Positions 7,971-34,559 of a DNA stretch of 34,559 nt are shown here, piece after piece (position 1 is the stretch's first letter; each line of letters starts with the position of its first letter). Source of the DNA: a virus. Both the position numbers and the translations under genes were made by a program. A model generated the notes under the pieces. It made no database searches. It saw only the letters and a list, made by a program, of their open reading frames with translations, and was not told the DNA's origin. The stretch covers positions 2,327-36,885 of IMG/VR virus record IMGVR_UViG_3300001472_000020. One strand, written 5' to 3'.

Positions 7971-10900
7971 ATGGCAACGTATTTACAAGGAGTTACAGAT
8001 TACATACCAGATTATCAGCCTTTTCAGCCTGATCTAAACTTTTATGCTAATACCCTACAAGCAAAACAAACTCAATATGATTCAAATTATAAGTCATTAA
8101 ATAACTTATATAGTACATTATATAATGCACCTGTTACACATGAGTTAAATAAAGAAAAGAAAGATGTTTTAATTAAGCAAATAGATGATAACTTAAAAAA
8201 GGTATCGGGATTAGATTTATCATTAGAACAAAATGTACAGCAAGCTACACAGGTGTTTAGACCTTTTTATGAAGATAAGTATCTTATGAAAGATATGGCG
8301 TGGACAAAAAATACAATGAATGTATTAGGTAATGCTAATAGTCTACGTAATTCTGAAAATCCTGATATTTATGAACAGTGGTGGCAAACTGGAATTGATG
8401 CTATTAACTATAGAACACAAGAATTTGGTGAATCATCTTTAGATGAAACAATGAATTTTCAAAATGTTAGTTATACAAAATATACTAACGCTGTACAGGA
8501 TTATATGGATATGGCAACTAAGTTAAAAATTTCTGCTGAACATACAGATTTAACTGCAGATGGTAAATACATAGTTACTCAAAAAAATGGAAGCTTAATT
8601 ATACCTACACTACAACAGCTATTTAATGCTGAGTATGCTAAAAACCCAAGACTTCAAGAAATATATTCTGTTCAAGCTTATGTAGATAGAAAAAATTGGG
8701 TTGCTCAACATGAACAAGATTATAATGGTGATAAGCTTACTACAGAAAAAGAGTACTTACAGCAGAAATATAATTTTATTTCAAACTTAGTAAATAAAGA
8801 AAATGTAACTGCTAATGATAACCTAAACACAACAAAGAATAAGGTTGATGCGGTTGAGAATGATATTGCAAATGGTGATGTAAATATTAAACAACAAAAA
8901 TATTTAGATGCTCTAGCTAATGGTGCCACAGTACAAGAGGCAATAGCAGCTAGCACTAAGAAACTTAATAAAGATTTAAATACAGGTAACAGAACTTCAG
9001 TTACAGTGGGTCAACCATCAGGATTAAATCTTGAGAACTTAAAATTAGCTAGACTAAAGGTAGATGCTGGTGTTGCGTCATTACTTGCAACAAAAGATAT
9101 AAACAGAGCTGCTAAGGCTTACTCAGATATTGGTAAAGAATACAAGAGAGATATCAGTAAGATTGGTATGGAAGACATTAGAAATAGAAATGCTAGAAGT
9201 AGAATTAGGCTTGCAGCTAGTCTTAAAAAAGAAACTGATAGACAAAGTAATTTTGAAAAATACATGACAGATAAAGGTATGTTAATGTATGATATGAAAG
9301 GTAATCTAGTGCCTGATCCTAAATTTGATGGTTCATTTAAAGAGCAAGACGGAGGTGATCCTGGTCAGTCTACAGACCAAGACGTTGATATTAATAAACT
9401 AAATAAGAAGACTTGGAAACAATTTACAGATGAGTCAACTAGCGGTTGGACAGATCAGTTTATGATAGACATGAAAAACCTAGTTGATAAAAATGAAATT
9501 TCTAATGAAGAGATAGCTAGGTTTATGATTCCAGGTGCATCAAGTGGTATTAATATAACAAGTGGTTTTAGTGATTCAAAAGAAGAATATAGAAATATTT
9601 TAAGAGAAGAAGGTACTTTAAATAAAATTGATGATAAACAATTTAAAGAAGGCTTACGAGAATATAGAATAAGTCAAGGTATTTTAGATGAGAATGATAA
9701 TGTAACTGATAAAGGTCGTAAGCTAAAGGAGGAGATATATGGTACAGAGAATGCTAAATCAGAATTTAATAAAATATATAAACTCTGGAAAGAAAATAAA
9801 TCAACTACTGTTAATGGTCAAACATTTACATATAGAGATCATTTGAATAGAGAGTATGCTCCTAAGATATGGGTTGATGAGTGGGATACATGGTCAAAAA
9901 GAAATGCTGGTAATACGGTTGTAGAAAATTATTTACAACGTTCTGATAACATTTTAAAAATGGAAACTTATAGAGCAACTTATGATGCTAATGAGGCAGT
10001 CTTTGAACAGAATAATGATAAAATAGTAACAGAGTTAAGGCAAACAGTTAATCAATTAGGGTTAGATGATAAGGTAGCTGAAGAAACTGTAGAGTTATTT
10101 AATAATATTGTAAACCTATCAGATATTCAAGGTAATGATGCCTTGTCAGATTTTACTGAAGATGAAATGCTGGCGTTGTTTAATAACAAACTAACACAAT
10201 TTCAATATGCATTTGCAAATCTTGTTGATAGTAAGGGTGGTAAAATAAAGGGTCAACAGACTATGTCTTCACAGGGTGGGAGTTCATATGATATGGATGG
10301 TGTAAAAACTGATAATGCCATGCCAATGCCATATTTACCTAAATTTCAAGATGGTACTGATTGGAATGAAACTAAGGGAATTTTACCTGAGCAATGGGCT
10401 ATGGTAAATCAAATGTTAGATAATGATCCAAGAATGAGATCTGCTATGTCTGAACTAGGTCTTAGTGATGATGGTAGTACACCAATAACAAGTCCTGAAT
10501 ATTATAATTTTGATCCTGCTTCAGGCTATGGAGATATTAAAAGATTAAGAGATGATATTGTTAAGCAGTACAGAAAAGGTATTAATGTAGAAATATTTGA
10601 AACAGATGAGGAAATACAAGATTTTGCACAAACTGCTTTTACACTTTTAAATGCTAAATATGATGAAATAGTATTTAGACCATCTGGGGATAATGCATTA
10701 TTGTCATACATACCTACTACAGCTGGAACAGATGGTAGAGCATCATTAGCTTCAGAAACACAATCTCAATATGTTAATATGCAGGTTCCTGGTAGTGCAG
10801 GCTTTAAAGATTATGCAGCTATGGTTAGAGATATAAATAACATAAACTTTAATCAAGCAGGTAATTATAGAATTAGTCTTAATGGTAATATGTTACCTGA

Positions 10901-11660
10901 AGATTTTAGTTCTATGAGTTTAAATAAAAATGATATGAATCCTGATTTTGCAAGCAGATTGCTTCAAGATGCTTATTTAGCTGGAAGAGAGGGAGCTAAA
11001 GGTATGGGTGATTTAAAGATTAGTAATAATCAAGTATCTATGGAAGATGCGGGTACGGGTTCTATGACAGTTAACTTTTCTAAAAAGTTTTTAGAAGAAT
11101 ATGTTACTAGTATCCCAGAAGGTACAATGGTGAATGGTGCTGAGATTGAAGGTGAAAATGCTGGTAAGGCTGAATTTGTAAAACAATATGTTGATCAAAT
11201 ATATCAAAATGGTATTACATTTATTGCACCGAAACAACAGTGGACTAACCCTTTCTTTAATAATAATCAGGTAGGTCAAACAGAAGCTATCATGAATGCA
11301 TTAGGAAGTCTTAATTATAGTCATCCAAATGGTGCAGGTAGTTATACGTTAGAAAAAATTAATAATGTACCAGGAGTTACTCATAGAGGTGTATTTGAAA
11401 TTAATTACATAGATCCCCAAACAGGAGAGCTTAAAACTAAAAGTCAAGAATTACACCCTAACGTTAGAAAAAATGGTGATGCATTAGATCAAACACTAGC
11501 ACTTATGTTTAATAGTATTAATCAGACATCAGTGATAAATAACCAGCTTTTTCAATCATTTGTTAAATCAGATAATACAGAAGCACTTAATAAAGTTAGA
11601 AGTAATCAAAAGCTTACATTAACTCCAAAAAGCTCTGGGTTTAAATATGGTAATAATTAA
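7971..11660 (+). CDS. Conserved crAss-like phage virion protein, first gene of the giant-protein block
   Basis: The product has 1229 residues. The N-terminus (MATYLQGVTDYIP, then FQPDLNFY and TKQ-like helical residues) is a pattern I associate with conserved virion-associated proteins of crAss-like phages; this is memory of the family, not a search. The first 120 residues are helical and polar. The rest is acidic, Asn/Asp-rich and soluble, with no signal peptide or clear membrane segment and no catalytic motif I can name. The C-terminus, from about residue 1020, looks like mixed alpha/beta folds. The ATG at 7971 follows a 61-bp spacer and has at most a weak purine-rich AGAGAAAA upstream. It ends TAA-AAC-ATG, so the next gene begins in the same frame after a single codon. 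Most likely it is a structural or cargo protein packaged with the three giants downstream. Confidence 0.85.
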   Translation: MATYLQGVTDYIPDYQPFQPDLNFYANTLQAKQTQYDSNYKSLNNLYSTLYNAPVTHELNKEKKDVLIKQIDDNLKKVSGLDLSLEQNVQQATQVFRPFYEDKYLMKDMAWTKNTMNVLGNANSLRNSENPDIYEQWWQTGIDAINYRTQEFGESSLDETMNFQNVSYTKYTNAVQDYMDMATKLKISAEHTDLTADGKYIVTQKNGSLIIPTLQQLFNAEYAKNPRLQEIYSVQAYVDRKNWVAQHEQDYNGDKLTTEKEYLQQKYNFISNLVNKENVTANDNLNTTKNKVDAVENDIANGDVNIKQQKYLDALANGATVQEAIAASTKKLNKDLNTGNRTSVTVGQPSGLNLENLKLARLKVDAGVASLLATKDINRAAKAYSDIGKEYKRDISKIGMEDIRNRNARSRIRLAASLKKETDRQSNFEKYMTDKGMLMYDMKGNLVPDPKFDGSFKEQDGGDPGQSTDQDVDINKLNKKTWKQFTDESTSGWTDQFMIDMKNLVDKNEISNEEIARFMIPGASSGINITSGFSDSKEEYRNILREEGTLNKIDDKQFKEGLREYRISQGILDENDNVTDKGRKLKEEIYGTENAKSEFNKIYKLWKENKSTTVNGQTFTYRDHLNREYAPKIWVDEWDTWSKRNAGNTVVENYLQRSDNILKMETYRATYDANEAVFEQNNDKIVTELRQTVNQLGLDDKVAEETVELFNNIVNLSDIQGNDALSDFTEDEMLALFNNKLTQFQYAFANLVDSKGGKIKGQQTMSSQGGSSYDMDGVKTDNAMPMPYLPKFQDGTDWNETKGILPEQWAMVNQMLDNDPRMRSAMSELGLSDDGSTPITSPEYYNFDPASGYGDIKRLRDDIVKQYRKGINVEIFETDEEIQDFAQTAFTLLNAKYDEIVFRPSGDNALLSYIPTTAGTDGRASLASETQSQYVNMQVPGSAGFKDYAAMVRDINNINFNQAGNYRISLNGNMLPEDFSSMSLNKNDMNPDFASRLLQDAYLAGREGAKGMGDLKISNNQVSMEDAGTGSMTVNFSKKFLEEYVTSIPEGTMVNGAEIEGENAGKAEFVKQYVDQIYQNGITFIAPKQQWTNPFFNNNQVGQTEAIMNALGSLNYSHPNGAGSYTLEKINNVPGVTHRGVFEINYIDPQTGELKTKSQELHPNVRKNGDALDQTLALMFNSINQTSVINNQLFQSFVKSDNTEALNKVRSNQKLTLTPKSSGFKYGNN

Positions 11661-11663
11661 AAC

Positions 11664-14600
11664 ATGGCAGAAGAAAACGTAGATAAAGAATTTGATAAGT
11701 TTGCAGATAAGACAGACTTTCTAGGACCTGCAAGAATAGAGATGGAACTTGATGCTCCAGAACTTACACCTATTTTTCCTAATTCTGTTCCAGATGCATT
11801 TGAGAATAATACATATAATACTCAAAGAAATACTGGTGGCATTTCTCCTAATTACCCACCTAGTGCTGTAAAGCAGAATGTAGTAAATACACCTGATTGG
11901 GGAGAGTCTTTAATAAATGCCACTGCTGCTAAGATAAACTCTTTAGAAGATAAAAATGAGTATGCTAAAATGTACACTTTTGATTCATCTCCTAAAGGTG
12001 CATTTAAAGCAAGATATAAAGCTTATGATCAAGATATATATAATAAAATTGGATTTAGTCCATTACTAGATAATGAATCTTGGTATAATAATAATACAAC
12101 TTTCGGAGATGATATATCTAGGACAATGAGAACTTCAGCATTGCCTATGCTTGGTCTTGGTTTTCTTAGTCCCTTAAATTCATATGGTAATATGCTTCAG
12201 GGTAAAAGCCCTTTTGCACAAGATGCAGATGAAGCTGCTGAGTACGATTATTATAATCAACTATCCTACTCTTCTAAAGGAGGAGTTGGAGGTTTTACAA
12301 ATAACTTAGTATTATCTGCAGCTTATTCAATGGGTATACTAGCAGAAGGTGCTGTAGAAGGTGCTCTTATTGGTGGTGCAGTAGGCTTTGTTGAAGGTGG
12401 TGTTGGAGCTATTCCTGGAGCTGCTGTAGGTGGTGCACTTGGTACTTTAAAAAGTTTATACAGACTTCCAGGTAGTATAATTAAGGGTGTTAAAGCTATG
12501 GGATCTATGGCTAAAAATTTAAAGGCATTTGGTGATGTTACTAAAGCTAGACAGTTATTTGCTGCTTCTGGACGTAATGCAGCTAATTTTCTAAATCCAG
12601 CATCTAACCTTACAGCACAATTAAAAGCTACTGATAATATATCTGGATTAGCAAAATCAGCAAGAACTGTAGGAGCTCTGTGGCATGATGTAAAAAATAT
12701 CAACATGGGTATTGCAGAAGGAAGACTTGAGGGTGGGTTTACTCAAAATCAGACATATGAAGAGTTGTATAATAATTACTATAGTCTATATGGTATAGCT
12801 CCTGATGAAGATATGCAAGAGAGTATGATGAATCAAGCAAAAGCTGCAGGATGGAGGAATTCATTAAACAACTCTATGTTAGTTTTCTATTCTAATAAAA
12901 TAGCCTTTCCGTCTATAACTCGTGCTGGATTTTTAAAAGGGTTACCAAAATTAGGAGTTGGTACTGTTGTAGGTAATGTGGGTAAAGAATTTCAAGTTGT
13001 ATTTAATCCAGCTAAAAAAGCTAGTGAAGCTGTATTTACTGCAGAAAAGATTGGTTTTAAGAATGCATTAAAAGGTTTTACTAAACCTAAAGTTTGGGCT
13101 AATAATTCAATTAATTATTTTAAGGCTAATCTAGTAGAAGGTTTTCAAGAGTCTGCTCAAGATATTTTAAATGATGCAACAAAAGAATATTACAAAGAAA
13201 CATTTTATAATCCAGCTGCTAGAAACATGAGGTATACAACTGGTGTTTTAGGAGATGCGTTTAATAAACAAATAAGTGCTCAAGGTGCTGAAACATTTGC
13301 TTCTGGATTTTTAATGGGTACAATACTACAATTACCTGGTAAAGTTAAGGGTGGTTTAAATTATTCTTATAATAGGTTTTATAAAAATAGAGGTAATTGG
13401 GAACAACATGTTAAAGAAAGAGGTAATGATGCTCAAGATGTAGTGGATAACTTAAATAACATGTATAAAAATGCACATCATTTTTTTGATCCTAGAATAA
13501 GTAATTATTCAACTCAGATGCTTGCAGCTAAAATGGCTGATAATCCTGAAGAAGTTTCAGAAAAAGAATTAAGAGATACATCATTTACAGCATTTCATGA
13601 ATCAGTTATGACATCATTAAGTAATGGTACTTATGATATGTTTACTCAAAATTTATCAGAGTATAAAAATGCTACGCCCGAAGAACTTGAAGAAGCTTGG
13701 AATTTAGAGAAAGGACAAGGGAGAATTGCATTAGATAATATAGATAATCAACTTGATACAGCAAAAACAATTTCTAAAAGATTTAGAGAAGCTAGAAATA
13801 AAATGAAGAATCAGATTGACTTAGCTCAATTTGAAGTAGGTAGTCCAGAATATGAAAAAGCTAGAATATATAATGAAGCATATAGAGTAGCTCTTTCTAA
13901 TTTAGTCTTTTTACAAGGGTCGTTTGATAAAAACTTACAGTCTATTAAAGACTTAGGAGATGAGGTTAGTTCTTTAGATGCTATAAAAGATTTAAATTTT
14001 TCAAACTTTAGTAACTTAATAGTACCAGAAAGACTGAGTCAAGAGATTGCTATGCTAGAAACAGAAATTGAATCTTTAAAATCAAATCCTCAAAGAGAAT
14101 ATCAAGCAAATATACAGACTGAAATTAAAAGAATGGAGTCTAAACTATCTGCACTAACTGATTTTCAAAATGGTCAGAATGGTTTGATTGAAGGTTATAT
14201 GCAAAATGAGTTGCTTAAAGGAGTGATGTCAAAAATAATGACTGAAGATTCGTCTTTAACACAACAGGATGTTGAAATAAAAGCTATTCAAGAGTTAATG
14301 GATCAATATACAGAGGGTAAATCAGAACCGTTTTCTATATATAAAGATTCCTTTAAAGAACTTCTTTTTTCTTTAGCAGATACTCCAGAGAAAAAAGCAA
14401 GATTGCAATCACAGTTAGATGAAAAAGGTGGTATAGATACCATGTATAGTAAACTTTTAGATCTTCATATATTAAATAATGAAACAGCAGGTCTAACTAA
14501 GTTTATAAATTTATTAAGTAGCCCAAGAGATTTTTATGAGCATGTAGATAGGAATTTTAGTTGGATGAATGAGCTATATGATAATAAAAAAGAATATGTT

Positions 14601-17600
14601 AAAGATGTAGTTAATCAAGAGATATCAAATATTGAAAGAAATGCTATATTAAATGAATTAGCAAATAAAGGAATATTTGTTGATCTCCAACAATTTTCTG
14701 ATTGGATAGCAGATACTAACAACCTACCTGATGAGTTTATTGATATCACTAATGAAAGAGTTATTAATAAAGATAGTGTCTTGTATGAAGAGTACGTTGA
14801 TTTGTTTATTGCTGCTGCAGATTTAGAAAGTAAAAAACCAGCTGGAGAAGAGTTAGATGCTAAACAATCTTTAGAGGCAAGAGTAGAAGAATTAAATAGT
14901 GAGAGAAATGATAAGATTAATGATCAACTAGAGTCTTTAGATTCTAAGCTTAAGTCTAACTATGGTAAAACAAGACAAGAAATTCTTGATGAAAAAGCAG
15001 AGTTTGATAAAGAATATAAAGAAAAAATAAATCAAAAAGAATCTAAAGAAGAAGAAAACAAACTTATAGCAAAATCAAGAGAGCAGTTAAAAACAAATAA
15101 TGTACTTGAGATTCAAGCAATTTATGATTATGCTATAGAAGAAGGTTATATTACGGAGGAGCAGTTTGAGAATGCTGTAAATACAATAGCTCAAAATGCT
15201 GGTAAACCTTTACAAAGAGTTTTAGAAGCTCGTAAAAATATTGATGTAAGTGATATAGAAGATGCTGAAGAAGCTAGGCAAATAGGTTCTACTCAAGCAT
15301 TTAAGAAAGTTATAATTGATAGTATTTTAGAAGATAAGGCTGAAGATATTGAAAAAGAAATACAAGACATAGGTGATGTTGATAGGCAACCACCAATGGT
15401 CCTAGAGTCTACAAAAGAATATAAAAGTTATGAAGAGATAGTGGCACAAATAAATGCAAAGTATGATGCTGCTATTGATGAGTTAAAAGGTAAGATTTCT
15501 AAAATGGATACTGAAGAATCAGTTGAGCAATTTTATACTACATCTACACCATTTGATAATTTTGATCAAACTTCAAAAGATAAAATTACAGAGTTATTTG
15601 ATGATTACCTTATAACAGATTTAAATGAAAATTTAGAGATTAAAGAAAATGATCCTGAGCAATATAGAAAATTAAGGGAAAGATGGTTAGAAAGACAATC
15701 AGAACTTATTAATGAATTAAATGCTGATGTTGTTGAGGCTAAGAGACAGAAGTTAGAAGAAATGTCTAAACCACCTGAGCTAAAGTTTTTACCATTTAAA
15801 GCTGATTCTAAAACTAAGACAGAAGTCCTGGGTAATATATATGATAAGTTACAACGTATTTTAAATGATGGTGAATATGCCAAAGATGCTAAGAAACCTG
15901 AAGAAAAAACTCAGCTAACTGAAGAAGATATAGAAAATATTAACTCAGATTTACAAGCTATTGAAGGTTATATACAATCCCGTGCAGAATTATTTGCACC
16001 ACAAACTGTTGCTGAAGAAGTTGTAAATAGAATTTCTGAAACAATAATTAATAGAAGAAATGAAGTTGTAGAAGTTACAGATGAAGAGGGTAATGTTATA
16101 GGTAGAAAGTTTGCCAATAGAGAAGATTCTGATCCATCACCTGAAAGAGTTACCGCAGTTGCTGAGGAAATTAAACAAGACCTAACAGGTGAACCTCAGT
16201 TTAAATATGACCCAATAGAAAAAACAGAAGATGGAGAGCCTGGTGCTATAGAAAGTGTGTATAATACTTATTTTCAAGATCCTGATATTACTAATGAAGA
16301 AGCTATTGATTTATTTGTAGCTAGGTTTAGAGAAATGGCCTACAGAGAATATAAGAAAGTCTTTGGAAATGAAGCTAAGTTAAGTTCAATTGAGAGTGGT
16401 ATCAGACAAGATTCTTCATTTAGTAATGTAGAAAGACTAATTAAAAAATATGTATTCAAACATTACTCAGATGCAGGAACTAATTCTGATGCTTTAATTA
16501 GAATGTTTTTAACTCCTAAATCAGAACAAGATGGTTCTGGATTTATAGATTTTACATATGACTCTGAAGTTGAAATAAAAGGTAATATGATTAAGGTATC
16601 AGATACTATGTCTGAAGAAGCCTATAATACTTTATTTAACTCAGCATCAGGTATTATATCTAAATTACGTCAGGGAATTATTGATGGTAAATGGCAAATA
16701 CTATCTGAAAATGTTTTACTGTTTGATGAAAACGCCAGAGAAAATGGCCTTACAGGAGAGATAGATTTACTTGCTATAGACACTGAAGGTAAAGTTAAGA
16801 TTATAGATATTAAAACTGGTAACCCTGGTACATGGAAAATTTATGGTACAGGAGCACAGTATGATAAGGAAGCTTACTTCCGTGGTCAACAAAGTATTTA
16901 TGCTGATTTATTTTATAATATGTCAGGTATAGATGTGGATTCTATTGGTTTATTACCATTAGAAACTATTGTGAATTTAGATGGTTATATTGAATCTGTA
17001 AAAAAACCAAATCTAGTTCCTAAAGGTGAGGACACTATTGAAATAGAAAAGATTGAGGATATTAGTAAGTATGGTCTTGAGAGAATTAGTCCAAATTTAA
17101 AAGAAATTAAAAGGGAAACTGAGAGAGGTGAGAGTAAAGTAGAAATAGGTATTCCACAAAGTGATCCAACAAAACTTACATTAGAAGAAAATCTTGGTAA
17201 CATGATTACATATAATGGAAAAACAGGATTATTATCTAAGATGGGTAATGGTACATTTGGTGTATTAGTTACATCTAAGGTTGATGATACATTATTAAAT
17301 CTAACATTAGAATCAGTTCAAAATGAATTAGTTCTTGAAAAAGCTAGTGAATTTAAAAATGAAGAGTTAATATCTCAATTAGAGGATCAAGTTAAAAAAC
17401 TACAAAAGAATATTGATGATAAAGGTGAGACCAAAGAAATGTACTCCATTAAATTTGATATGGAGAATGTTTATGATGGTGGTCTTAACATGATGGAATT
17501 AGGTATACAACCAGTTGCTATTATAGAAAGTGTTGGTCAACAAAGAATGGTTGGTGGTAAAATTATCAATGCTAAGTTTGATAACCCTGCAGAAACAATA

Positions 17601-19004
17601 GCTACTATAAATGGAATAAAGTATAATGTATTAAGAGACACGTCAGGAAACATTACTATATTAAATTATATGTCCAATGAAAAAGAAATCAAGGATGTAG
17701 ATCAGGAAGCTGGTCAAGTATCAATGGAGATTGGTAAACTAAGACAAGAAGCTGCTGAACTTGAAGGTATAGAAAAAGACTTTGTATTAAAAAAGATATC
17801 TAAAAAACAGGTATATAAAACAGAGCTTGATAGAAAGAGGCAATCATTAGTTAATAATAATACAAAGGTATTTTTAAGGGGTAGAAATAATGAAGATCTT
17901 ATATTTGCATTAAATAAATTACCCAACAGTCTTCAAAAGGTTACAGAAGGTCGTACTAAAGCAGATGAGATAATAGATTTAAAAGAAATAGGAAGGTTAT
18001 CTTTATCACAAAGTATTTCTGAAGCAATAGATGAAGTTATGTCAAGAAATTATCCAGATGCAATGGATGTTTTAATTGATAAAGGTTTAGCTGGTGCAGC
18101 TGGTCAGAATGGTCAACAAATTATTGATTGGGCTACAGAGACAATTAAAGAGTTAGAAGACTTAGGTTTTAGTGTAATTAATAGAGGAGATCTAGTTGAT
18201 GATATATCTAGACAAATAGATGCTTTAAATTTATTACTAGGAGATTTAGAATTAATTAATTTAAATAAAGATGGAAAAATCAGTAAAAGACAAAAAGGAA
18301 AAGTTAGAGACTACTTTGAAAGGGAAGAAATACAGGAAGGGTCTAGTGTATCTACGGATGCAGAGTCTGTCCAACCAGAGACAAAAAGAGTTCTTAGACC
18401 ATCTGCAACCAAAACAGAACTTAAAAGAAAAATAGATTCTATTAGAAATAAGTTTGATAAAGAAGACAAAGCTACTTTAGAAAATATAACAAATAATGAG
18501 TTCATTGTTAATCTAAATGAAGCTACTAAATCTAATATTGAAAACATATATGAAAAGGCCTTATTAGAAGCAGCTAAAGAGACTACTCCTTTAACAGTAG
18601 ATGATGTAAAGTTGGCATATGAAACTAGGCTTGAAGAGTTAGAAACTAATATGGACTTAGCCAGTATAGAAAAAGGAATGATCTTAATGGACAAGTTAGA
18701 TACTCCAAACTATTATATGGTTAAAAAAATCAATAAAAATTCAGTAACTTTAGAGAATATCCAAACTCAAGAAAAGATGAATGTATCTGAAACAGATCTT
18801 ACTGATTATGATAAATCAAATGATGAACAAACTCCTGTAGTAGAAACAACTGAAGAGCTAGTAGAAAGCTCAGAAGAATCTGTAGCTAATTTAAAAGAAT
18901 TAGCTAAAAATGAAGAAAAACTATCTCAAGCAAAAGAAAATGCTAAAAAATCTACTAGAGAAGATAGGATGAATAAATTAAAAGATAACTCATTAAAATG
19001 TTAA
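11664..19004 (+). CDS. Giant virion protein with Gly-rich hydrophobic segment and RecB/Cas4-type PD-(D/E)XK nuclease domain
   Basis: The product has 2446 residues. The N-terminal part contains IGFSPLLDNESWYNNNTTF and GGVGGFTNNLVLSAAYSMGI, patterns I recognise from giant proteins of crAss-like phages. Residues about 215-262 are hydrophobic and Gly/Ala-rich, compatible with membrane insertion. Coiled-coil-like, Glu/Lys-rich stretches lie near 790-830 and 1065-1142. A nuclease core follows: GEIDLL at 1698-1703 (Asp1701), IIDIKTG at 1713-1719 (Asp1715, Lys1717) and QQSIY at 1742-1746, matching the D, DxK and QxxxY motifs of RecB/Cas4-like PD-(D/E)XK nucleases. The C-terminus is acidic and helical and ends in Lys-Cys. 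The gene sits directly before the RNA polymerase gene, so the protein is likely packaged and delivered with it. Nuclease motifs are seen; activity and target are not known. Confidence 0.88.
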   Translation: MAEENVDKEFDKFADKTDFLGPARIEMELDAPELTPIFPNSVPDAFENNTYNTQRNTGGISPNYPPSAVKQNVVNTPDWGESLINATAAKINSLEDKNEYAKMYTFDSSPKGAFKARYKAYDQDIYNKIGFSPLLDNESWYNNNTTFGDDISRTMRTSALPMLGLGFLSPLNSYGNMLQGKSPFAQDADEAAEYDYYNQLSYSSKGGVGGFTNNLVLSAAYSMGILAEGAVEGALIGGAVGFVEGGVGAIPGAAVGGALGTLKSLYRLPGSIIKGVKAMGSMAKNLKAFGDVTKARQLFAASGRNAANFLNPASNLTAQLKATDNISGLAKSARTVGALWHDVKNINMGIAEGRLEGGFTQNQTYEELYNNYYSLYGIAPDEDMQESMMNQAKAAGWRNSLNNSMLVFYSNKIAFPSITRAGFLKGLPKLGVGTVVGNVGKEFQVVFNPAKKASEAVFTAEKIGFKNALKGFTKPKVWANNSINYFKANLVEGFQESAQDILNDATKEYYKETFYNPAARNMRYTTGVLGDAFNKQISAQGAETFASGFLMGTILQLPGKVKGGLNYSYNRFYKNRGNWEQHVKERGNDAQDVVDNLNNMYKNAHHFFDPRISNYSTQMLAAKMADNPEEVSEKELRDTSFTAFHESVMTSLSNGTYDMFTQNLSEYKNATPEELEEAWNLEKGQGRIALDNIDNQLDTAKTISKRFREARNKMKNQIDLAQFEVGSPEYEKARIYNEAYRVALSNLVFLQGSFDKNLQSIKDLGDEVSSLDAIKDLNFSNFSNLIVPERLSQEIAMLETEIESLKSNPQREYQANIQTEIKRMESKLSALTDFQNGQNGLIEGYMQNELLKGVMSKIMTEDSSLTQQDVEIKAIQELMDQYTEGKSEPFSIYKDSFKELLFSLADTPEKKARLQSQLDEKGGIDTMYSKLLDLHILNNETAGLTKFINLLSSPRDFYEHVDRNFSWMNELYDNKKEYVKDVVNQEISNIERNAILNELANKGIFVDLQQFSDWIADTNNLPDEFIDITNERVINKDSVLYEEYVDLFIAAADLESKKPAGEELDAKQSLEARVEELNSERNDKINDQLESLDSKLKSNYGKTRQEILDEKAEFDKEYKEKINQKESKEEENKLIAKSREQLKTNNVLEIQAIYDYAIEEGYITEEQFENAVNTIAQNAGKPLQRVLEARKNIDVSDIEDAEEARQIGSTQAFKKVIIDSILEDKAEDIEKEIQDIGDVDRQPPMVLESTKEYKSYEEIVAQINAKYDAAIDELKGKISKMDTEESVEQFYTTSTPFDNFDQTSKDKITELFDDYLITDLNENLEIKENDPEQYRKLRERWLERQSELINELNADVVEAKRQKLEEMSKPPELKFLPFKADSKTKTEVLGNIYDKLQRILNDGEYAKDAKKPEEKTQLTEEDIENINSDLQAIEGYIQSRAELFAPQTVAEEVVNRISETIINRRNEVVEVTDEEGNVIGRKFANREDSDPSPERVTAVAEEIKQDLTGEPQFKYDPIEKTEDGEPGAIESVYNTYFQDPDITNEEAIDLFVARFREMAYREYKKVFGNEAKLSSIESGIRQDSSFSNVERLIKKYVFKHYSDAGTNSDALIRMFLTPKSEQDGSGFIDFTYDSEVEIKGNMIKVSDTMSEEAYNTLFNSASGIISKLRQGIIDGKWQILSENVLLFDENARENGLTGEIDLLAIDTEGKVKIIDIKTGNPGTWKIYGTGAQYDKEAYFRGQQSIYADLFYNMSGIDVDSIGLLPLETIVNLDGYIESVKKPNLVPKGEDTIEIEKIEDISKYGLERISPNLKEIKRETERGESKVEIGIPQSDPTKLTLEENLGNMITYNGKTGLLSKMGNGTFGVLVTSKVDDTLLNLTLESVQNELVLEKASEFKNEELISQLEDQVKKLQKNIDDKGETKEMYSIKFDMENVYDGGLNMMELGIQPVAIIESVGQQRMVGGKIINAKFDNPAETIATINGIKYNVLRDTSGNITILNYMSNEKEIKDVDQEAGQVSMEIGKLRQEAAELEGIEKDFVLKKISKKQVYKTELDRKRQSLVNNNTKVFLRGRNNEDLIFALNKLPNSLQKVTEGRTKADEIIDLKEIGRLSLSQSISEAIDEVMSRNYPDAMDVLIDKGLAGAAGQNGQQIIDWATETIKELEDLGFSVINRGDLVDDISRQIDALNLLLGDLELINLNKDGKISKRQKGKVRDYFEREEIQEGSSVSTDAESVQPETKRVLRPSATKTELKRKIDSIRNKFDKEDKATLENITNNEFIVNLNEATKSNIENIYEKALLEAAKETTPLTVDDVKLAYETRLEELETNMDLASIEKGMILMDKLDTPNYYMVKKINKNSVTLENIQTQEKMNVSETDLTDYDKSNDEQTPVVETTEELVESSEESVANLKELAKNEEKLSQAKENAKKSTREDRMNKLKDNSLKC
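16740..16910 (+). other. PD-(D/E)XK nuclease active-site region
   Basis: Conserved acidic and basic residues fall in the order expected for RecB/Cas4-like nucleases: Glu1699-x-Asp1701, then Asp1715-x-Lys1717-Thr-Gly, then Gln1742-x3-Tyr1746. The intervening AIDTEGKVKI has the usual beta-hairpin character. The Cys residues of the Cas4 iron-sulfur cluster are not apparent nearby, so a RecB-like variant without a cluster is more likely. Confidence 0.8.
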
Positions 19005-19017
19005 AAAATGGCTTGTG
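18993..19017 (+). repeat. Gene-junction repeat, copy 1 (Lys-Cys-stop-Lys-Met-Ala-Cys)
   Basis: The junction between the nuclease and polymerase genes matches the one between the polymerase gene and the next at about 20 of 25 positions, with AAATGTTAAA, ATG and TTGTG in common. In both, the upstream protein ends in Lys-Cys and the downstream protein has Cys at position 3. Confidence 0.6.
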
Positions 19018-22000: not shown

Positions 22001-25000
22001 TAAAAAGGCCATGGCTAACTATGGAGATCCTGTAGAAACATTAGATGGAGATACTGTACAAGCAAATGTTATAAATTATCACTTAGAAAAATCTATTTAT
22101 AAAGTACTAGGTGATGAGTATATAGAGGTGGAAGATCCAAGTGATTTAAAAACAACAACGTTATTTAAAAAAGACCAGGGTAATAATATCTCAGCAAGAG
22201 AACTTGCAGGACAAGATACATTAATGCTATTAGCTAGTATAGTTAAAACAGAAAAAGATGAAGATGGTAATTTGGTAGATTCTTTAGATTATTTTGGTAT
22301 ACCGCAAATACAAAGTATTGATATAACATGGAATAGATTAGCTAAAATACTAGAAGGTTCTTTTAATGATCAAGAATTGTATAATAGAATATTAGAAAAC
22401 GCTGACAACTATCCTGAGCTAGAACAGCTTTCAAATCTATTACCTAATCCAGGTGTAGATTATAGAGATTCAGCTGAGTTTGATTTAGAGACTAGTTTTT
22501 GGCAAGACTTTAAAAAACCAAGATTACCTTATATTCAGTTAAACCTAAATACAGAAGGAGATACAGAAAAGGTATATGAGGCTAGAGTAATGAAGGCCAG
22601 TTTTGATACACGCCAGGTTATGAATGACTGGACTCAAAATTTTAAGATATCAGATAAATCAACTAACCCATATGTAAATGTAGATAAGCTAGGAAGATCT
22701 GTTTTAAATACTAAAAAAATTATAAAAGACTTTAGTATAAATGGTCAATTCAACTATAAAAAAGCTAATAGATTTTTAAAAGCTGTAGGAATACAGTTAG
22801 ATATGACAAGCACAGCTCTTAAGAATATAGTTAATAATAGAACTACACCTTTTAGTAATACTTTTGGAATTGATAGAATGTTTCAAATAGTAAGTCAAGT
22901 AGATAAGTTAGAAAAAACATATCCATCTGAAGCCTATCAGTTTAAAATTAATCCTTTAAGATACTTTAGAGAAGGGTTACCAAAACAACTTAGATTAAGT
23001 GAAGATAATAGTCAAGAAGTTAGTGGTAGAATTAAAGTCCTAGCAGAACTTCAAAATACATATTCAGATAAATTTTCAAACTTTAGTGTTCAAAGTGCTG
23101 AAGGTAATAGAGTATGGGAGCATTTTCTTGATAATACTATAACTAGAATGGTTACCTCTATTAACTATGCAGAAAACTGGCAAGAGTTAACAGGTCAAGA
23201 ATTTGCTGATCCTGATCAACTCTTTAAGCACATGTATTGGATGGGTGAGGATAATAACACAATGACTCAATTTTCTGTATTATTAAAATCTATTTTTCAT
23301 TTAGATGATTCAAATCCTGAAACTTATGGTAAGAAAAAAGATATAGGTAATAAATTAAAATTACAAAATGTATCAGGTACACAATTAATAGGTAAAAATA
23401 CAATTGGATCTGCTACAGCTTCAATGGACGCAACTAGTAAGTATCTTCAAGAGTTTCATACAATGTTGTTAAGTGGTGTAGAAGAATTTATGAGACATGC
23501 TTCTAAGAATACTGCACAAGGTTTATCTTTAACAGAAAAAATTCAAACCTATAATGGCAAAAGAGCTAATAATCTTTATGTAGACATTGAAGCATTTATG
23601 CCAGGAGCTTTTGGTACAATGAAAGCTAATGATATACTGATGGGTTATATTGCAGGAGAAGGTAATAGAATCTTTAGATATAAATCAAACAAGAGTAAGT
23701 TTTCACAGTTTAAAGGTTACAATAGAACGGTTAAAAGAAAGGATGGTAAATCTGTAGACGCAGCAGAAGCATTCACTGCATTTGATGATGTATTATCAGC
23801 TGAAACACAAAGAAACTTATATAAAGAAATAGATAATTCTATTGATGAAAATATAGGTGATTTTAATTTGATGGATGTTCTTAATGCTAATGAAGAATTA
23901 AGAGATAGTGTAGCTAGAGATTTAGATTTATACTTTGAAAAAGAATCTACAAATAATAATAACCGTTTAAGTAAAGCAAAATACTTAGATCAATCTCTCT
24001 TAGATAGAATAGATAGAGAGGGTTATCAATTAACACCTGATCAGCTTCAGGAAGTACTTTCTACTGCATATACGTATAACTCATGGATTCATAAGTTTGA
24101 AACAACCATATTAGCCTATGGTGATGTAGTACAATATAACCATGCTAAAGAAGAGTTCCATAAACGTAATGCTGGTTTAGGATCGGGTGGTAGAAGTTTC
24201 CGCTCAGATTTAAGAGCTCAAGCTTTTATTAATGATCAATCATTGTTTAAAAAGTATTATGCAGATAAAAAAGGTTATAGTGTAAAACCATATGACGGGA
24301 CTCTTACTACTGGAATTCTTAAAGAGTATAAAAGAGATTCTATTATGTATGATGAGTACTTAAAGAGTTTGGAAGATGCTTATTATAATAAACTTAAAAA
24401 TCGTACTAAAGCTAAGAAGCTTGCTAAAATTGCAATGGGTGAGTATATGGGCATGGAAGTAGGTGATGGTCAAGGACATATTACTTTTGAGTCATATAGA
24501 ATGCTAAAAAAACTTGAGAATAATTGGACTGATAACCAAGAAAGATTATATAGAAAAATATCTTTAGGTGAGTCTATTAATATAGAAGACGTTGTAGAAT
24601 ATTTTCCACCCTATAAGCTTCAGTATTTTGGTAACATGCAAACTACAGGACTTCCATTAACATCATTTCATAAATTCTCACTTGCACCAATAGTGCCAGG
24701 TGTTGCTAAAGAAAATACACCACTTGCAAAGATTCATGATAAAATGATGAAGGATCAAGTAGACTATGTAACATTTGAGTCAGGTTCTAAAGTAGGTCAT
24801 ATAGGATCAGGTGATGCATTTTTAAATCAAGATGGTACATTCAATGAAGATGCAACGTTTACTAAAAACGTAATATTTGCTGAGTATCTAAAAAATCAAA
24901 CAGAAATAAATCCATCTTATAAGGGTAAATCAATTTTCTCAACTCAAATGAGAAAGCTTATTTTAGAAGGGTTATATACACAGGGTGTCATAGATACTAC

Positions 25001-28000
25001 TGATGAATCCAAGATAACGGAAGTAAAGGTTAAAAGATACCTAGACCATGTATCAGACTACACAGATCTATTAAAGTATGAGCTCTTAGAAGAAATTGGT
25101 TTTAAAGAAACAAGTAATGGAGAATTCGTAGCTAAAGATGCTAAAAGCAGAGGTAGACTTGCTAACCTAATAAGAACAAACTTAGAAAGAGAAGATGTAT
25201 TAAGTGATGACTTAATAGAGTTTATAGATGTGTTTGAAAATGATGGTGAAATGCTACATGATATATCGTTTCATCCAGATGCTTCTAAGATTGAAAAAAT
25301 ATTACTTTCTGTAATTAACAAAAGAATAATAAAACCTAAAGTAAAAGGTGAGCCTTTAGTTCAAGTTTCTTCCGCATTATATGAGAACCAACTAAATGTA
25401 CCTGTCAATCTTAAAAATGCAAGTCAAGAAGATATTAAAAAATATGTAGGGACAAATCTATTACCTACATATCATGCTGGTAAAGGTAAGACTAATGCAA
25501 TGAAGGTAATGGTGGCCATGCAAAGTGATTATTATAATTTGTTTAAGCTACCGTATGACTTAACTAAAAGAGAAAAAATAGAGGTTACTAATGAAGATGG
25601 TACTGTTAACGTAGAGGAAAGTATAAAAAGACTTAATGAAAAAATTAAGGATGATGCATGGCTAAACGGTAATGATGGTGCTAATAGAAAAGCAGTAACT
25701 ATGGTAGGTGTTCGTATTCCTGTACAGGGACTAAATTCTATGGAGTTCATGGAAGTCTATGAATTCTTACCCCCAGCTGCAGGTAACATAGTTGTAGTAC
25801 CAGCAGAGATTGTAGCTAAGTCAGGTGGTGACTTTGATATTGATAAGCTCACAATATTTATGAGTAACTTAAATAAAAATGGTAGAGTCATAAGACCTCA
25901 GTTTTCTAACACAGCTGCTTTAAAGGAAGAAATGACTAAAGAAGGTTTTAATCTTAATGAACTTAAGATTCAAAAAGCTGGTATTGAGAATGAAATGATT
26001 AATGACATTAGAGAAATCTTAGAAATGCCACATAACTATGCAAGTCTTGTAACTCCTAATGGTACATTCTTGTTGAAGCAACTATCTGAAAAATTAGCTA
26101 GAGATGTAATGGAGTATGATCCGTTAGAAAATAGAATGTCTGATGAAAGAGGAGAGTCTATTTCACCTACTAGAATCTTTGAGGCAGGTTATAACTTATA
26201 CAAGCATGAGTCAAATGCAGTTGGTAAAAGAACATTAGGACTTGGTGCAATTGAAAATACATTTAATGTAATCATGAATGCTGCGGGTGCAAAGATGCCA
26301 TCAGTAATTAATATACCGTTTGAAGGACAAAGAGATGTAAGTCTTTATTTAAGACATAATAAGTTTGGTGATACAAATCAAATATCATTATCAGATCAAT
26401 TTGATATAGATGGTGTAAATAAAGTTGCTGACGTTATATCACAAATGATGAATGGTTGGGTTGATGTTGAAAAAGATGCATGGGTATTCTTTATACAAGG
26501 TAACTATGAAGTAGCACCTCAGCTATTATATTTAACAAAAGCAGGCGTACCAATAGAAGAAGCTGTTTATTTTGTTTCTAATCCATTAGTAAGAGAATAT
26601 GTTGATGAACAACGTATTGCCAGATCTACATTTGCAGAGGTTTTAGGTAAAAAACCTGCTCAACCAACCTTTACTAAATATCAAGCAGCTAAGAATGTAA
26701 TTAAAAATAACTTTGACTCAGATGTATTAGGTGCTAGAACTAAAAATAAAGTAAGACATGAGACTGGTGAAAAAATGATTGAGGACTTGCTTAGTAAAAG
26801 AAAAGATAAACACTTTAATTTAAAAGAACTTAAGAAAGTTGTAGAGTCGGATCCTACAGATATGAAAAAAGATAAGTTAGCACAGGCAATGTTCTTACAT
26901 TATCTTTCAATAGAAAAACAAGTTGGTGGCCTAACCGCATTAAAAATGTCTTCTAATCCTGACACTAGTACAAAGAGTACAATATCTGATGTAGAACAAA
27001 CAGAAGCTAACTTGGATCAAATTAGAGAAGGTGATCATGCTGAGTTACTAGAATCTTTTATGAATGATTCTGTTATTAGTTCCTTCTTTAATGGCCCACT
27101 AGCTCTTGCTTTAAGTAGACCTCTATTTAAATTAAGATTTCATAAGAACATTAGTGATTATTTAATAGTAAAGAGTGAAGCTATAAGAAATGATTTACAG
27201 TTTACATTTCCTGGGGGAACAACTGAAACGTTTTTAAATGTATTTAGAAATGACCTTGTAAGCTTTTTATTTCAAAATTCTCTAAGAAGATATAAACTAG
27301 AAGATACTTATATGTCTCATGCTATTAATAAAAGCATTCCTGTTAAACTTGTATCTAAGTTAGATAGAGGGGCTTTTGTTAAAGATGATATTTTATATGT
27401 AGATGAAAAAGAAATTAAAAGAGAATTTAAAACCAAATCTTGGGAGGTTGATTCTGAAGCGGAAAATAATTATGAGGACAAGAATCTGTATGCTCTAAAT
27501 CCAAGTACGTTTATGCAGAATGGTGAATCTAACTATAATGAATATTTAAAGTTTGTATTAGAGAGAGAAACATTAAGGCCATTATTTAGCTTTGCAGATG
27601 TTACAAAGACTCAAGAATTTGCAGAAGAATTAAAAAAGTCTGAAATAGAATTACCTGAAGAGTCCAATCAAAATCTAGCTAGATATACGTATGAAAGAAT
27701 ACTAGCTAATAAGGCGTTAGATAACACATATAATTTCTATCATTTATTTAATAATCCAGAATACTCCATGGGTGTAAGATTATCAGAAATGCTTGTTAAA
27801 TATCCTGATCTTGCTAGTAAGTTTGAAGTTCTTCAGAGAATGAGAAATAATACTAATAAAGAAGAGACTGTATTTAATATTGAAATTAATGATAAAGATT
27901 ATAATAATGATAAGTCTAACCTTTACACTAAAAATCTAGCTGATTTAGCTGACATATCTGTAATAAAATCTAATGATAATGAAGAAAATGCAAGAATTAG

Positions 28001-28910
28001 TGATTTCTTTAATAAGCTAAAAATGTTTGGCTTCTTGCAAAGTGGTATTAATAAGGAGAGCGTTAGTATAACTAATGTTTTAGATTATAGACCTTTTGTA
28101 CAAGTACTTGAAACTGAATCTGATGCTTTTATAAAAGCTCTTGATACTGATGGTAACAAAATCTTAGATAACTTTTATAAATTATTTTTAGAGCAAAATG
28201 CAGCTACTAATAAAGATAAGCGTAGATATAAAGATTACCTATCATTATTAAATTATAAGCAACCATCTAAGATTAAAGATATAGCTATACCAACAAGAAG
28301 TAGAACTCCTATTCTAGAGGATTCTCTTGATACTAGTGATTTAAATGTATCACCAGTAAGACAAGGCCTAAAAACAACTACTAAAAATAAAGTATTTACT
28401 TATAATGATAGATTTGCAAATAGTAATGTCTACTATAACAATCTTATGCTTAACAATCAAGATGTAGTATTTATTCATAATACAACATTAAATGAATTAA
28501 AATCAGAATTTACTAAATCATTTGGTGGTCAAACAGCGTTGGCTACAAACAGTAGTGGCATGGCTGTAAATTTCCCAACTGGTAATACTAAACCAGATGA
28601 TGCTATGGAAGGTTTATCAGAAAGTCAAATAAAAGATATACAAGATTTATATGAAAGAAGAATAGCAGGTATCAAAGAACTAGTTGAAGGAGACACTAAT
28701 ATTGCATTTCCTGAAACAGGTATTGGTACCAGTTTACCTCAAGAATTATTTGTATATTTAAGTAAGAGGTTGTTTGAAGAATTTCAGTATGTTAATCCAG
28801 GATCTACAATGTATGATCAAGTTAATGATCTTATAGGTAAGGCTCAAGGAATTACTGATCAAGAAATACTAAGTGCTCTACAATTAGAACAAGACCCTTT
28901 TAAATGTTAA
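19008..28910 (+). CDS. Virion-packaged two-barrel DNA-dependent RNA polymerase of crAss-like type, with zincin-like domain
   Basis: The product has 3300 residues. Catalytic region: GGDFDID at 2273-2279 (Asp2275, 2277, 2279) fits the DxDxD magnesium-binding motif of the second double-psi barrel, and RIP at 2236-2238 followed by QGLNSMEF parallels the NRxPTLH segment of cellular beta-prime. Lys2159, Lys2161 and Lys2166 are candidates for first-barrel lysines. FHKFSLAPIVPG (from 1887), FESGSKVGH and SNAVGKRTLG (2402-2411) also recur in crAss-like polymerases as I recall them. Residues 612-666 form a Lys-rich linker. HEAWH at 769-773 with EEDIAE at 807-812 is a zinc-metallopeptidase signature, followed by an amphipathic helix ending FLRDLF. 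The characterised relative, phi14:2 gp66, is about 2180 residues; this protein is longer at the N-terminus. It likely enters the cell with the DNA and transcribes early genes, by analogy with gp66. Confidence 0.92.
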   Translation: MACALNQEQVLDVYEILIGDILELGVDTPFQLDTVVKDLYNAINDKEKAVLYAQATPDILNLVLQDDEANEKLVMSGFDFTNLAKMRVEFNNLDNVSKFVAQKKRTKKDVDSDIAGISKGNAAKRPKDSGDEKILWSYNENEGAKVVFPLATTSQIAYSENPEEVSEEKRNEIDPEKKLFYDVIKDIVYISRQQETDSQEIIYGDTSLALVAKKASDVDPMLLTTDDRNFLEENPESSGIVSIISDTEGKPVFFDEGGNVTTEDKGRIVYSYLRRVNLVKDKLLLSNRSNRHYNLVEPEVIVSRLVEQMESQPKAKKVSKKWFDDKVKEIRDKQEKEMNDLYTLRNHIMDTEQSVILPIIGGSFGIPTNKAKTMSLAESGISLQDIKQYQQITTEGKNKGKQFIMLSMERPGLTVDQQIFLQRGDINSELADKIADVLTTSATLKGKQLTPEDRKNYFEIFINNAIGKGFKTNRDRITAKVRVRDNEKSLVVTIKGEEIPQDQLYTEETRNKVKEHLMNAIDFKGVRTYPANVQFNNKYKNGDFDDYTIDGDKITVESKNYFNFIKPFIKIEYQDSDNAYMNGLNAYMNYSIPEGFNPEDSQFYKVGRPVTKDKTKVQKRFEKKKNKKKDKDSYTSVKEKKSIRNTNKVQPATETKPKTKKEAVDKAVGKGGLLADILNQPSRNLNATVKAKSKKLNRDKTINAYLNNVFSNKKDRDSAETWWSNSPLSKHIELERITEIVNSDAYATWQGYGITLYEGDGGTAVDLYHEAWHGFSQLFLSVSEKTSLYNKLMENDRWKKKSFLEIEEDIAEDFRRFAKSKGKVKRQGVVGRIFNKIYNFLRDLFKGVTKKEVITRPSDIPVVKELFDKLYRASENPEIISNLKPSMNNILFTELNRLKTINENFTIDESVKISSAMDNIVSHLIKNFNRDNNTTAGALKILRDTDQKIALYDDAYAMLEAVANQYEGFITQIIEDNENAAKPDIALLQQYQDKFDLIKKAMANYGDPVETLDGDTVQANVINYHLEKSIYKVLGDEYIEVEDPSDLKTTTLFKKDQGNNISARELAGQDTLMLLASIVKTEKDEDGNLVDSLDYFGIPQIQSIDITWNRLAKILEGSFNDQELYNRILENADNYPELEQLSNLLPNPGVDYRDSAEFDLETSFWQDFKKPRLPYIQLNLNTEGDTEKVYEARVMKASFDTRQVMNDWTQNFKISDKSTNPYVNVDKLGRSVLNTKKIIKDFSINGQFNYKKANRFLKAVGIQLDMTSTALKNIVNNRTTPFSNTFGIDRMFQIVSQVDKLEKTYPSEAYQFKINPLRYFREGLPKQLRLSEDNSQEVSGRIKVLAELQNTYSDKFSNFSVQSAEGNRVWEHFLDNTITRMVTSINYAENWQELTGQEFADPDQLFKHMYWMGEDNNTMTQFSVLLKSIFHLDDSNPETYGKKKDIGNKLKLQNVSGTQLIGKNTIGSATASMDATSKYLQEFHTMLLSGVEEFMRHASKNTAQGLSLTEKIQTYNGKRANNLYVDIEAFMPGAFGTMKANDILMGYIAGEGNRIFRYKSNKSKFSQFKGYNRTVKRKDGKSVDAAEAFTAFDDVLSAETQRNLYKEIDNSIDENIGDFNLMDVLNANEELRDSVARDLDLYFEKESTNNNNRLSKAKYLDQSLLDRIDREGYQLTPDQLQEVLSTAYTYNSWIHKFETTILAYGDVVQYNHAKEEFHKRNAGLGSGGRSFRSDLRAQAFINDQSLFKKYYADKKGYSVKPYDGTLTTGILKEYKRDSIMYDEYLKSLEDAYYNKLKNRTKAKKLAKIAMGEYMGMEVGDGQGHITFESYRMLKKLENNWTDNQERLYRKISLGESINIEDVVEYFPPYKLQYFGNMQTTGLPLTSFHKFSLAPIVPGVAKENTPLAKIHDKMMKDQVDYVTFESGSKVGHIGSGDAFLNQDGTFNEDATFTKNVIFAEYLKNQTEINPSYKGKSIFSTQMRKLILEGLYTQGVIDTTDESKITEVKVKRYLDHVSDYTDLLKYELLEEIGFKETSNGEFVAKDAKSRGRLANLIRTNLEREDVLSDDLIEFIDVFENDGEMLHDISFHPDASKIEKILLSVINKRIIKPKVKGEPLVQVSSALYENQLNVPVNLKNASQEDIKKYVGTNLLPTYHAGKGKTNAMKVMVAMQSDYYNLFKLPYDLTKREKIEVTNEDGTVNVEESIKRLNEKIKDDAWLNGNDGANRKAVTMVGVRIPVQGLNSMEFMEVYEFLPPAAGNIVVVPAEIVAKSGGDFDIDKLTIFMSNLNKNGRVIRPQFSNTAALKEEMTKEGFNLNELKIQKAGIENEMINDIREILEMPHNYASLVTPNGTFLLKQLSEKLARDVMEYDPLENRMSDERGESISPTRIFEAGYNLYKHESNAVGKRTLGLGAIENTFNVIMNAAGAKMPSVINIPFEGQRDVSLYLRHNKFGDTNQISLSDQFDIDGVNKVADVISQMMNGWVDVEKDAWVFFIQGNYEVAPQLLYLTKAGVPIEEAVYFVSNPLVREYVDEQRIARSTFAEVLGKKPAQPTFTKYQAAKNVIKNNFDSDVLGARTKNKVRHETGEKMIEDLLSKRKDKHFNLKELKKVVESDPTDMKKDKLAQAMFLHYLSIEKQVGGLTALKMSSNPDTSTKSTISDVEQTEANLDQIREGDHAELLESFMNDSVISSFFNGPLALALSRPLFKLRFHKNISDYLIVKSEAIRNDLQFTFPGGTTETFLNVFRNDLVSFLFQNSLRRYKLEDTYMSHAINKSIPVKLVSKLDRGAFVKDDILYVDEKEIKREFKTKSWEVDSEAENNYEDKNLYALNPSTFMQNGESNYNEYLKFVLERETLRPLFSFADVTKTQEFAEELKKSEIELPEESNQNLARYTYERILANKALDNTYNFYHLFNNPEYSMGVRLSEMLVKYPDLASKFEVLQRMRNNTNKEETVFNIEINDKDYNNDKSNLYTKNLADLADISVIKSNDNEENARISDFFNKLKMFGFLQSGINKESVSITNVLDYRPFVQVLETESDAFIKALDTDGNKILDNFYKLFLEQNAATNKDKRRYKDYLSLLNYKQPSKIKDIAIPTRSRTPILEDSLDTSDLNVSPVRQGLKTTTKNKVFTYNDRFANSNVYYNNLMLNNQDVVFIHNTTLNELKSEFTKSFGGQTALATNSSGMAVNFPTGNTKPDDAMEGLSESQIKDIQDLYERRIAGIKELVEGDTNIAFPETGIGTSLPQELFVYLSKRLFEEFQYVNPGSTMYDQVNDLIGKAQGITDQEILSALQLEQDPFKC
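21312..21443 (+). other. HEAWH zincin motif with downstream Glu ligand
   Basis: His769-Glu770-Ala-Trp-His773 is a standard HExxH zinc site in a hydrophobic helical context (VDLY before, GFSQLF after). EEDIAED at 807-813, about 35 residues later, offers the third ligand of a gluzincin-like site (Glu808 or Glu812). All key residues are intact, so a peptidase is plausible; substrate unknown. Confidence 0.7.
25713..25844 (+). other. RNA polymerase catalytic region (R-x-P and DFDID)
   Basis: These bases encode residues 2236-2279. R-I-P-V-Q-G at the start and G-D-F-D-I-D at the end are spaced much as NRxP and DFDGD are in multisubunit polymerases. The Gly of the cellular DFDGD is replaced by Ile, as in the crAss-like enzymes. 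All three Asp are present. Confidence 0.9.
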
Positions 28911-28926
28911 ACTATGCTTTGTGACG
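28902..28926 (+). repeat. Gene-junction repeat, copy 2 (Lys-Cys-stop-Thr-Met-Leu-Cys)
   Basis: This is the second copy of the junction sequence at 18993-19017. It again has AAATGTTAAA across the stop and TTGTG two bases after the ATG, and again codes for a C-terminal Lys-Cys and an N-terminal Met-x-Cys. Confidence 0.6.

Positions 28927-34559: not shown

Follow-up and report, generated by a model that had tools for sequence, protein, structure and literature searches.

The window, the whole stretch of 34,559 nucleotides analyzed here, corresponds to positions 2327–36885 of the 56,240-base virus record IMGVR_UViG_3300001472_000020, in which a block of giant genes is accompanied by replication-type genes grouped on the opposite strand. 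The same genes were found at 100% identity in the IMG/VR contig IMGVR_UViG_3300000149_000002 (loci L004 and L083). Four giant open reading frames, designated P1 to P4, are located on the plus strand: P1 at 7971–11660 (1229 aa), P2 at 11664–19004 (2446 aa), P3 at 19008–28910 (3300 aa), and P4 from 28914 to the end of the window at 34559. The P4 gene overruns the window; its stop codon lies at record coordinate 37191 (window coordinate 34865), and the full-length protein has 1983 aa. As the preliminary description had noted, all four genes share one frame, and each gap consists of TAA, one codon, and ATG. The sequence is TAA-AAC-ATG at the P1/P2 junction (11658–11666), TAA-AAA-ATG at the P2/P3 junction (19002–19010), and TAA-ACT-ATG at the P3/P4 junction (28908–28916).

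Upstream of P1, at 4706–7909, lies a gene for a protein of 1067 aa with glycine-rich repeats and a cluster of cysteines at residues 723–778 (CxC and CxxC motifs). Its neighbors at 73–999 and 1039–4695 are, in contrast, cysteine-free. At the start of the record, within its first 3 kb (window positions 1–999 and locus L002), the repeated module DGGxxPKHNxxGIVKGSK opens successive proteins or domains, one of which also has an HExxH-type sequence (SAHEAAHTMQ).

A tblastn search with residues 701–3300 of P3 gave matches in 129 phage records, nearly all of them crAss-like, including gp50 of crAss001, gp077 of the Cellulophaga phage phi14:2, and gp44 of p-crAssphage. P3, itself a giant protein, has the DxDxD catalytic motif as GDFDID at residues 2274–2279 (25827–25844, plus strand). 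By these matches, P3 is a homologue of the crAss-like virion RNA polymerase, and the earlier assignment of the giant proteins to a crAss-like phage was correct. The presence of P3 in the virion and its ejection are assumed by analogy with phi14:2 and crAss001, which share with the window a homologous P3, the DFDID motif, and a block with two further giant proteins. The counterparts of P2 are crAss001 gp47 and phi14:2 gp078, and those of P4 are gp49 and gp076, respectively. The phi14:2 protein gp077 is the chain solved as PDB 6vr4, and the annotation of phi14:2 gp076–gp078 as structural proteins rests on mass spectrometry of virions. In crAss001, gp47, gp49, and gp50 were likewise detected in virions by mass spectrometry and placed in the cargo zone of the capsid, where the cargo proteins are present in multiple copies and must partly unfold to exit via constrictions of less than 50 Å (PMC10172136). 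Searches against Pfam and PHROGs gave little for the giant proteins, namely LysM in P4 (aa 1659–1697) and a weak PD-(D/E)XK match in P2 (aa 1686–1749), and a PDB sequence search with P3 alone returned nothing meaningful.

Scanning IMG/VR with P3 yielded 79 loci, in all of which P1, P2, P3, and P4 were separate genes. Frames were counted after dereplication at 90% P3 identity. Among the dereplicated relatives, 34 of the 114 junctions with readable spacing were in frame, against an expectation of one third (p ~0.5). All three junctions were in frame only in the window, among 29 dereplicated loci with all three readable, while 1.07 such loci would be expected. Among compact spacings, these phages use one of exactly 3 nt most often (20 of 114 junctions), and 3-nt gaps are also found between early genes of the window's genome. 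In three phages, crAss001, cr128_1, and DAC17, the P2 homologue is on the other strand. The window's clade has 58 members, and the genes are split in every one of them.

The common frame had initially been read as the trace of a recently split polyprotein, or as a device by which readthrough or stop-coupled reinitiation across the three TAA codons sets the ratio of packaged proteins. The comparison of homologous loci, proposed at the same time as a check, revealed scattered spacings and frames, and the shared frame is real but coincidental and carries no signal. Since the in-frame rate equals that of chance, the frame supports neither readthrough nor a recent split; moreover, the split of P2, P3, and P4 must be old because the entire clade of 58 has it. 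It is true that P2–P3 and P3–P4 fusions occur in relatives, that the frame is common in this one phage, and that translation may well be coupled across so short a distance between stop and start. Nevertheless, with in-frame junctions at the chance rate, P2 on the other strand in three phages, and an old split, we regard both versions of this reading as extremely improbable. These results exclude readthrough as a conserved device. Translation may be coupled at the tight junctions, yet this would be as ordinary as in any compact operon.

The distribution of cysteine residues in the four proteins is highly regular. P1, a virion-cargo-type gene product, has no cysteine, and there is none on either side of the P1/P2 junction. 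The only cysteine of P2 is its last residue, Cys2446 (…KDNSLKC, TGT codon at 18999–19001). P3 has cysteines only at residue 3 (MAC…, TGT at 19014–19016) and at its last residue, Cys3300 (…DPFKC, TGT at 28905–28907). The only cysteine of P4 is residue 3 (MLC…, TGT at 28920–28922). Thus, the P2/P3 and P3/P4 junctions are flanked by TGT codons on both sides, all on the plus strand.

The same pattern was found in the relatives. In the first set (57 dereplicated clusters), a cysteine was present within 10 residues of the inner ends in 42 of 43 P2 C-termini, 41 of 41 P3 N-termini, 57 of 57 P3 C-termini, and 50 of 50 P4 N-termini. No cysteine was found within 10 residues of the outer ends (P1 C-terminus 0/30, P2 N-terminus 0/23, P4 C-terminus 0/50). 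Interior cysteines numbered 4 in 84,917 residues of P2, 7 in 196,692 of P3, and 6 in 96,899 of P4, i.e., about 5 per 100,000, compared to a cysteine content of 0.98% in this phage's early proteins. Scanning again with phi14:2 gp077 added 80 loci, and a third scan, with the fusion protein of Flavobacterium phage Fpv1, added 8; scans with p-crAssphage and cr1_1 queries gave almost no loci. For separate proteins of both sets, the cysteine was kept at 84 of 85 P2 C-termini, 91 of 91 P3 N-termini, 113 of 114 P3 C-termini, and 108 of 108 P4 N-termini (at positions 3–6), with outer-end controls at 0/64 (P2 N-terminus) and 0/101 (P4 C-terminus). The sole exception for P2 was L148, in which the cysteine lies 18 residues from the end. 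The distance from the tip varied from 1 to 9 residues at the C-end and from 3 to 7 at the N-end.

The start codon was taken as the ATG nearest the upstream stop, blind to cysteine, and the search patterns of the first scan were non-terminal; the pattern was therefore not built in by the procedure. The counts for the ends of P2 and P4 exclude five loci whose frames are broken or misassigned: L008 (P2 reading frame broken), L019 (P4 reading frame broken), L135 (broken frame, out of both the P2 and P4 counts), and L151 (broken polymerase frame) and L168 (a false motif pick), the last two being also out of the polymerase table. L143 was not counted for the P2 C-terminus, as its P2 is fused and the upstream gene is P1.

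In phi14:2, cysteines were found at residue 1797 of 1797 in gp078, at residues 3 and 2179 of 2180 in gp077, and at residue 3 in gp076. In crAss001, they are located at residue 2339 of 2341 in gp47, at residues 5, 1334, and 2404 of 2412 in gp50, and at residue 5 in gp49, although gp47 is encoded on the other strand. In DAC17, where the P2 homologue is likewise encoded on the other strand, its single cysteine (within 2116 aa of sequence) is at position −3. As P2 keeps its cysteine on the opposite strand in crAss001 and DAC17, the pattern must act at the protein level and not as a DNA or RNA signal. A junction motif in the nucleic acid (TGT-TAA-NNN-ATG-NNN-TGT) as the cause was ruled out on the same ground and by the differing spacings and frames. 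Some gut lineages (L154, L155, L158, L167, L170, ctcc615, and cr8_1) have 10–40 interior cysteines in P3, which indicates that strict absence of other cysteines is not needed everywhere. In L154, L155, L158, L167, and L170, the polymerases with many interior cysteines still keep those at both ends, and only the scarcity is relaxed. Across the sequences compared, the cysteine rule is order-wide and nearly exceptionless.

Variation of protein boundaries within clades was reported for the crAss-like transcription block, with no rule for the boundaries given (PMC7886860). That relatives split and fuse these giant proteins, as had been suggested for all four, held for P2, P3, and P4; P1 stands outside the fusing set. 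We compared fused and broken junctions in 130 dereplicated Crassvirales-type polymerases. At the P2/P3 junction, the cysteine was present in 89 broken cases and absent from 2 (91 vs. 0 after correction of three start codons), and it was present in none of the 18 fused ones. At the P3/P4 junction, the corresponding numbers were 113 broken with cysteine, 1 broken without (L140), and 0 of 14 fused with cysteine. Fisher's exact p-values, with relatedness ignored, were 6e-21 and 9e-18 for the P2/P3 and P3/P4 junctions, respectively. On the tree, the architecture changed at least 10 times. Independent contrasts on well-supported branches numbered five for P2/P3 and four for P3/P4, with none against the rule, which is too few to reach p <0.05 by themselves. 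The start-codon corrections concerned L170 and crAss002, the two apparent exceptions at P2/P3, and L158. In L170, an in-frame start (MAKDTC) 22 codons inside restores the cysteine, in crAss002 an in-frame MSC start does so, and L158 had been counted from the internal start MASC, as in L167. In L140, the P3 cysteine lies 287 residues from the end, where the polymerase part stops, ahead of a glycine-rich domain. This domain, fused to the polymerase C-terminus (L140, 7369–13201), resembles the neighboring gene.

The absence of cysteines matched the position of the fusion. P2–P3 fusions were found in the Suoliviridae phages cr118_1, cr1_1, cr4_1, and cr7_1, in Fpv1, and in L131, L137, L139, L143, L159, L165, and others. 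They have no cysteine at the N-terminus but keep one at the C-terminus, and the N-terminal cysteine of P4 is also kept. In Fpv1, the only cysteine of the 4401-aa fusion is residue 4400. P3–P4 fusions (Intestiviridae; L116 and L117) show the reverse: the N-terminal cysteine is kept, there is none at the C-terminus, and P2 keeps its C-terminal cysteine. Triple fusions (L153, L156, L160, L175, and L180; 5,220–5,639 aa), as well as the partial L169 and L176, have no cysteine at all; their N-terminal parts match separate P2 and their C-terminal parts match separate P4. In phages with a short P4, a profile test did not indicate any shift of the N-terminal half of P4 into P3.

In Intestiviridae, the gap before the gp33-type gene contains a strong hairpin resembling a terminator or a processing site. 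In crAss002, the start annotated for gp33 seems to be wrong; the true one would be the in-frame MSCTPSNPK, which matches the annotation of its relative cr107_1. The regions concerned are L095, 9458–9790 (crAss002), and L191, 7458–7723 (cr107_1).

Additional genes at the junctions were also examined. Six loci (L020, L025, L026, L027, L046, and L078) have an additional gene between P3 and P4, encoding a protein of 242–261 aa with exactly two cysteines, one at residue 3 and one at the last residue. These proteins are homologous (29–35% identity) to the C-terminal 110–190 residues of the longer P3 of L021, L043, L065, L032, and others, which has no cysteine at the corresponding internal place. Links of this kind were also found in distant phages: 754 aa with cysteines at residues 3 and 752 in L172, and 871 aa with cysteines at residues 3 and 871 in L140. 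Other kinds of genes inserted at the same places do not have the pattern, namely ferritin-like genes in L108, L113, L122, L146, L148, L152, L162, and L168 and an endonuclease-like gene in L147. By eye, a ferritin- or Dps-like gene of ~160 aa adjoins P3 at a block junction in several unrelated phages and is always outside the cysteine chain. Three loci (L031, L051, and L075) have a short P1 (~475 aa) followed by an extra gene of ~600 aa before P2. The extra genes between P1 and P2 are cysteine-free, as would be expected if a chain began at the P2 C-terminus, with P1 upstream of it and outside.

The order of links is the order of fusion, the outer ends are free of cysteine, and both cysteines of a junction are missing when it is fused; for these reasons, a thiol pair joining neighboring proteins is the simplest reading. 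Disulfide is the likely chemistry because virions of crAss001 contain resolved inter-subunit disulfides, proven in the portal vertex and the tail (PMC10172136), so that oxidation does occur in the particle. We therefore consider it likely, from the sequence pattern, that P2, P3, and P4 are linked head to tail by inter-chain disulfides, which take the place of a peptide bond in the virion. The idea that the giant proteins act as a unit thus stands for P2–P3–P4 on the evidence of the junction cysteines, and the shared frame drops out as evidence for it.

According to this proposal, P2, P3 (the RNA polymerase), and P4 would be three links of one virion cargo unit, which is a single polypeptide in some relatives. 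In the oxidized virion, the C-terminal cysteine of P2 would pair with the N-terminal cysteine of P3, and the C-terminal cysteine of P3 with the N-terminal cysteine of P4; these partners are deduced by elimination only. The product would be a linear head-to-tail disulfide chain of ~7,700 residues behaving like a fused polyprotein. Such a chain could keep order and stoichiometry in packaging, and its links would be drawn serially through the narrow tail. The reducing cytoplasm of the host would then open the bonds after ejection and release the polymerase. The scarcity of other cysteines would avert branching and wrong pairing, and a linear chain of this kind could be threaded free of branches. 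The common reading frame would have no part in this mechanism. The full proposal, a "reversible polyprotein" in Crassvirales held by terminal-cysteine disulfides that are evolutionarily interchangeable with fusion, drawn out via the tail as a single string and then freed by the reducing cytoplasm, seems to us reasonably probable.

Disulfides could also be formed otherwise than head to tail, between like ends (P4–P4 or P2–P2) or with the portal, ring, or another virion component. In crAss001, disulfides are known to link different virion proteins, and like ends could meet, as the cargo is present in multiple copies. However, bonds of this type would not require the joint absence of cysteines at a fused junction with those of the other junction kept. 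The outer ends, P2-N and P4-C, never have the cysteine, and the inserted links have it at both ends, which also argues against such pairing; we consider it improbable. Still less probable is a junction made by other chemistry, such as a shared metal ion, a thioester, ligation to a true peptide bond, or a modification of another kind. Two thiols meet at every break, and any thiol chemistry could make use of them, but no conserved His, Asp, or other ligand is apparent in the listed termini, and the variable position of the cysteine is ill suited to an enzyme-like motif.

The terminal cysteines might instead act inside the cell, in a transient assembly check or in contacts within the working polymerase complex, with no covalent bond in the virion. 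The P2/P3 and P3/P4 termini must be able to adjoin, since fusions are tolerated, and the recombinant phi14:2 polymerase with both cysteines was solved as a separate protein (6vr4). Adjacency alone, however, would not select a cysteine at each break together with near absence elsewhere, and the chance of an exclusively intracellular role appears very small.

The head-to-tail disulfide chain differs from the disulfides already known in phage particles. Those in the portal vertex, tail hub, and ring proteins of crAss001 are likewise inter-subunit bonds, but they stiffen a shell that stays outside, whereas the proposed bonds would join the ejected cargo head to tail. A disulfide between gp47, gp49, and gp50 is unmentioned in the published crAss001 text (PMC10172136). 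No phage-borne thiol oxidase was found; thioredoxin was present in 2 of 45 records and glutaredoxin in 0 of 45, and a search for Evr1/Alr gave no match, although its control gave none either. The N4-type virion RNA polymerase of Schitoviridae is similar in being giant, ejected through a narrow tail, and cysteine-free (zero cysteines in N4 vRNAP, gp51, and gp52), and its lack of cysteine was proposed to be important for entry (PMC2784036). It differs in being one chain with an unrelated T7-type polymerase, no terminal cysteine, and no multi-protein chain; P3 is homologous to the crAss two-barrel type and not to the T7-type polymerase of N4.

The family to which the proteins belong is already known, and any claim to novelty concerns the linking rule. 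Although phi14:2 and crAss001 also have the terminal cysteines, the crassvirus literature examined makes no mention of them, and no paper combining crAss, vRNAP, and disulfide was found there; the 2021 paper on the phi14:2 polymerase structure was outside this comparison. The crassvirus structure paper poses as an open question how folded proteins of 150–280 kDa exit the head in a set order via a channel of less than 50 Å, and suggests that packing and interactions between cargo proteins likely determine the order of extrusion in crAss001 (PMC10172136). A disulfide chain would be one such interaction between cargo proteins and, if it exists, would answer the question of ordered exit. It would also mean that evolution has repeatedly replaced a peptide bond by a reducible one in one of the most abundant groups of human-gut viruses, and it would offer a naturally evolved way of delivering several proteins strung together.

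The cysteine rule yields exact predictions for mass spectrometry, and two cultured phages, crAss001 and phi14:2, are available. For crAss001, the calculated disulfide pairs are CNS (gp47 2339–2341) with CITTNSTIEELAAK (gp50 5–18), MH+ 1813.831, and ICGANTLYEL (gp50 2403–2412) with CAIIPQVR (gp49 5–12), MH+ 1993.025. For phi14:2, they are GEDSNTIC with MACK, MH+ 1287.501 (Met kept), and QECK with MSCK, MH+ 972.395.
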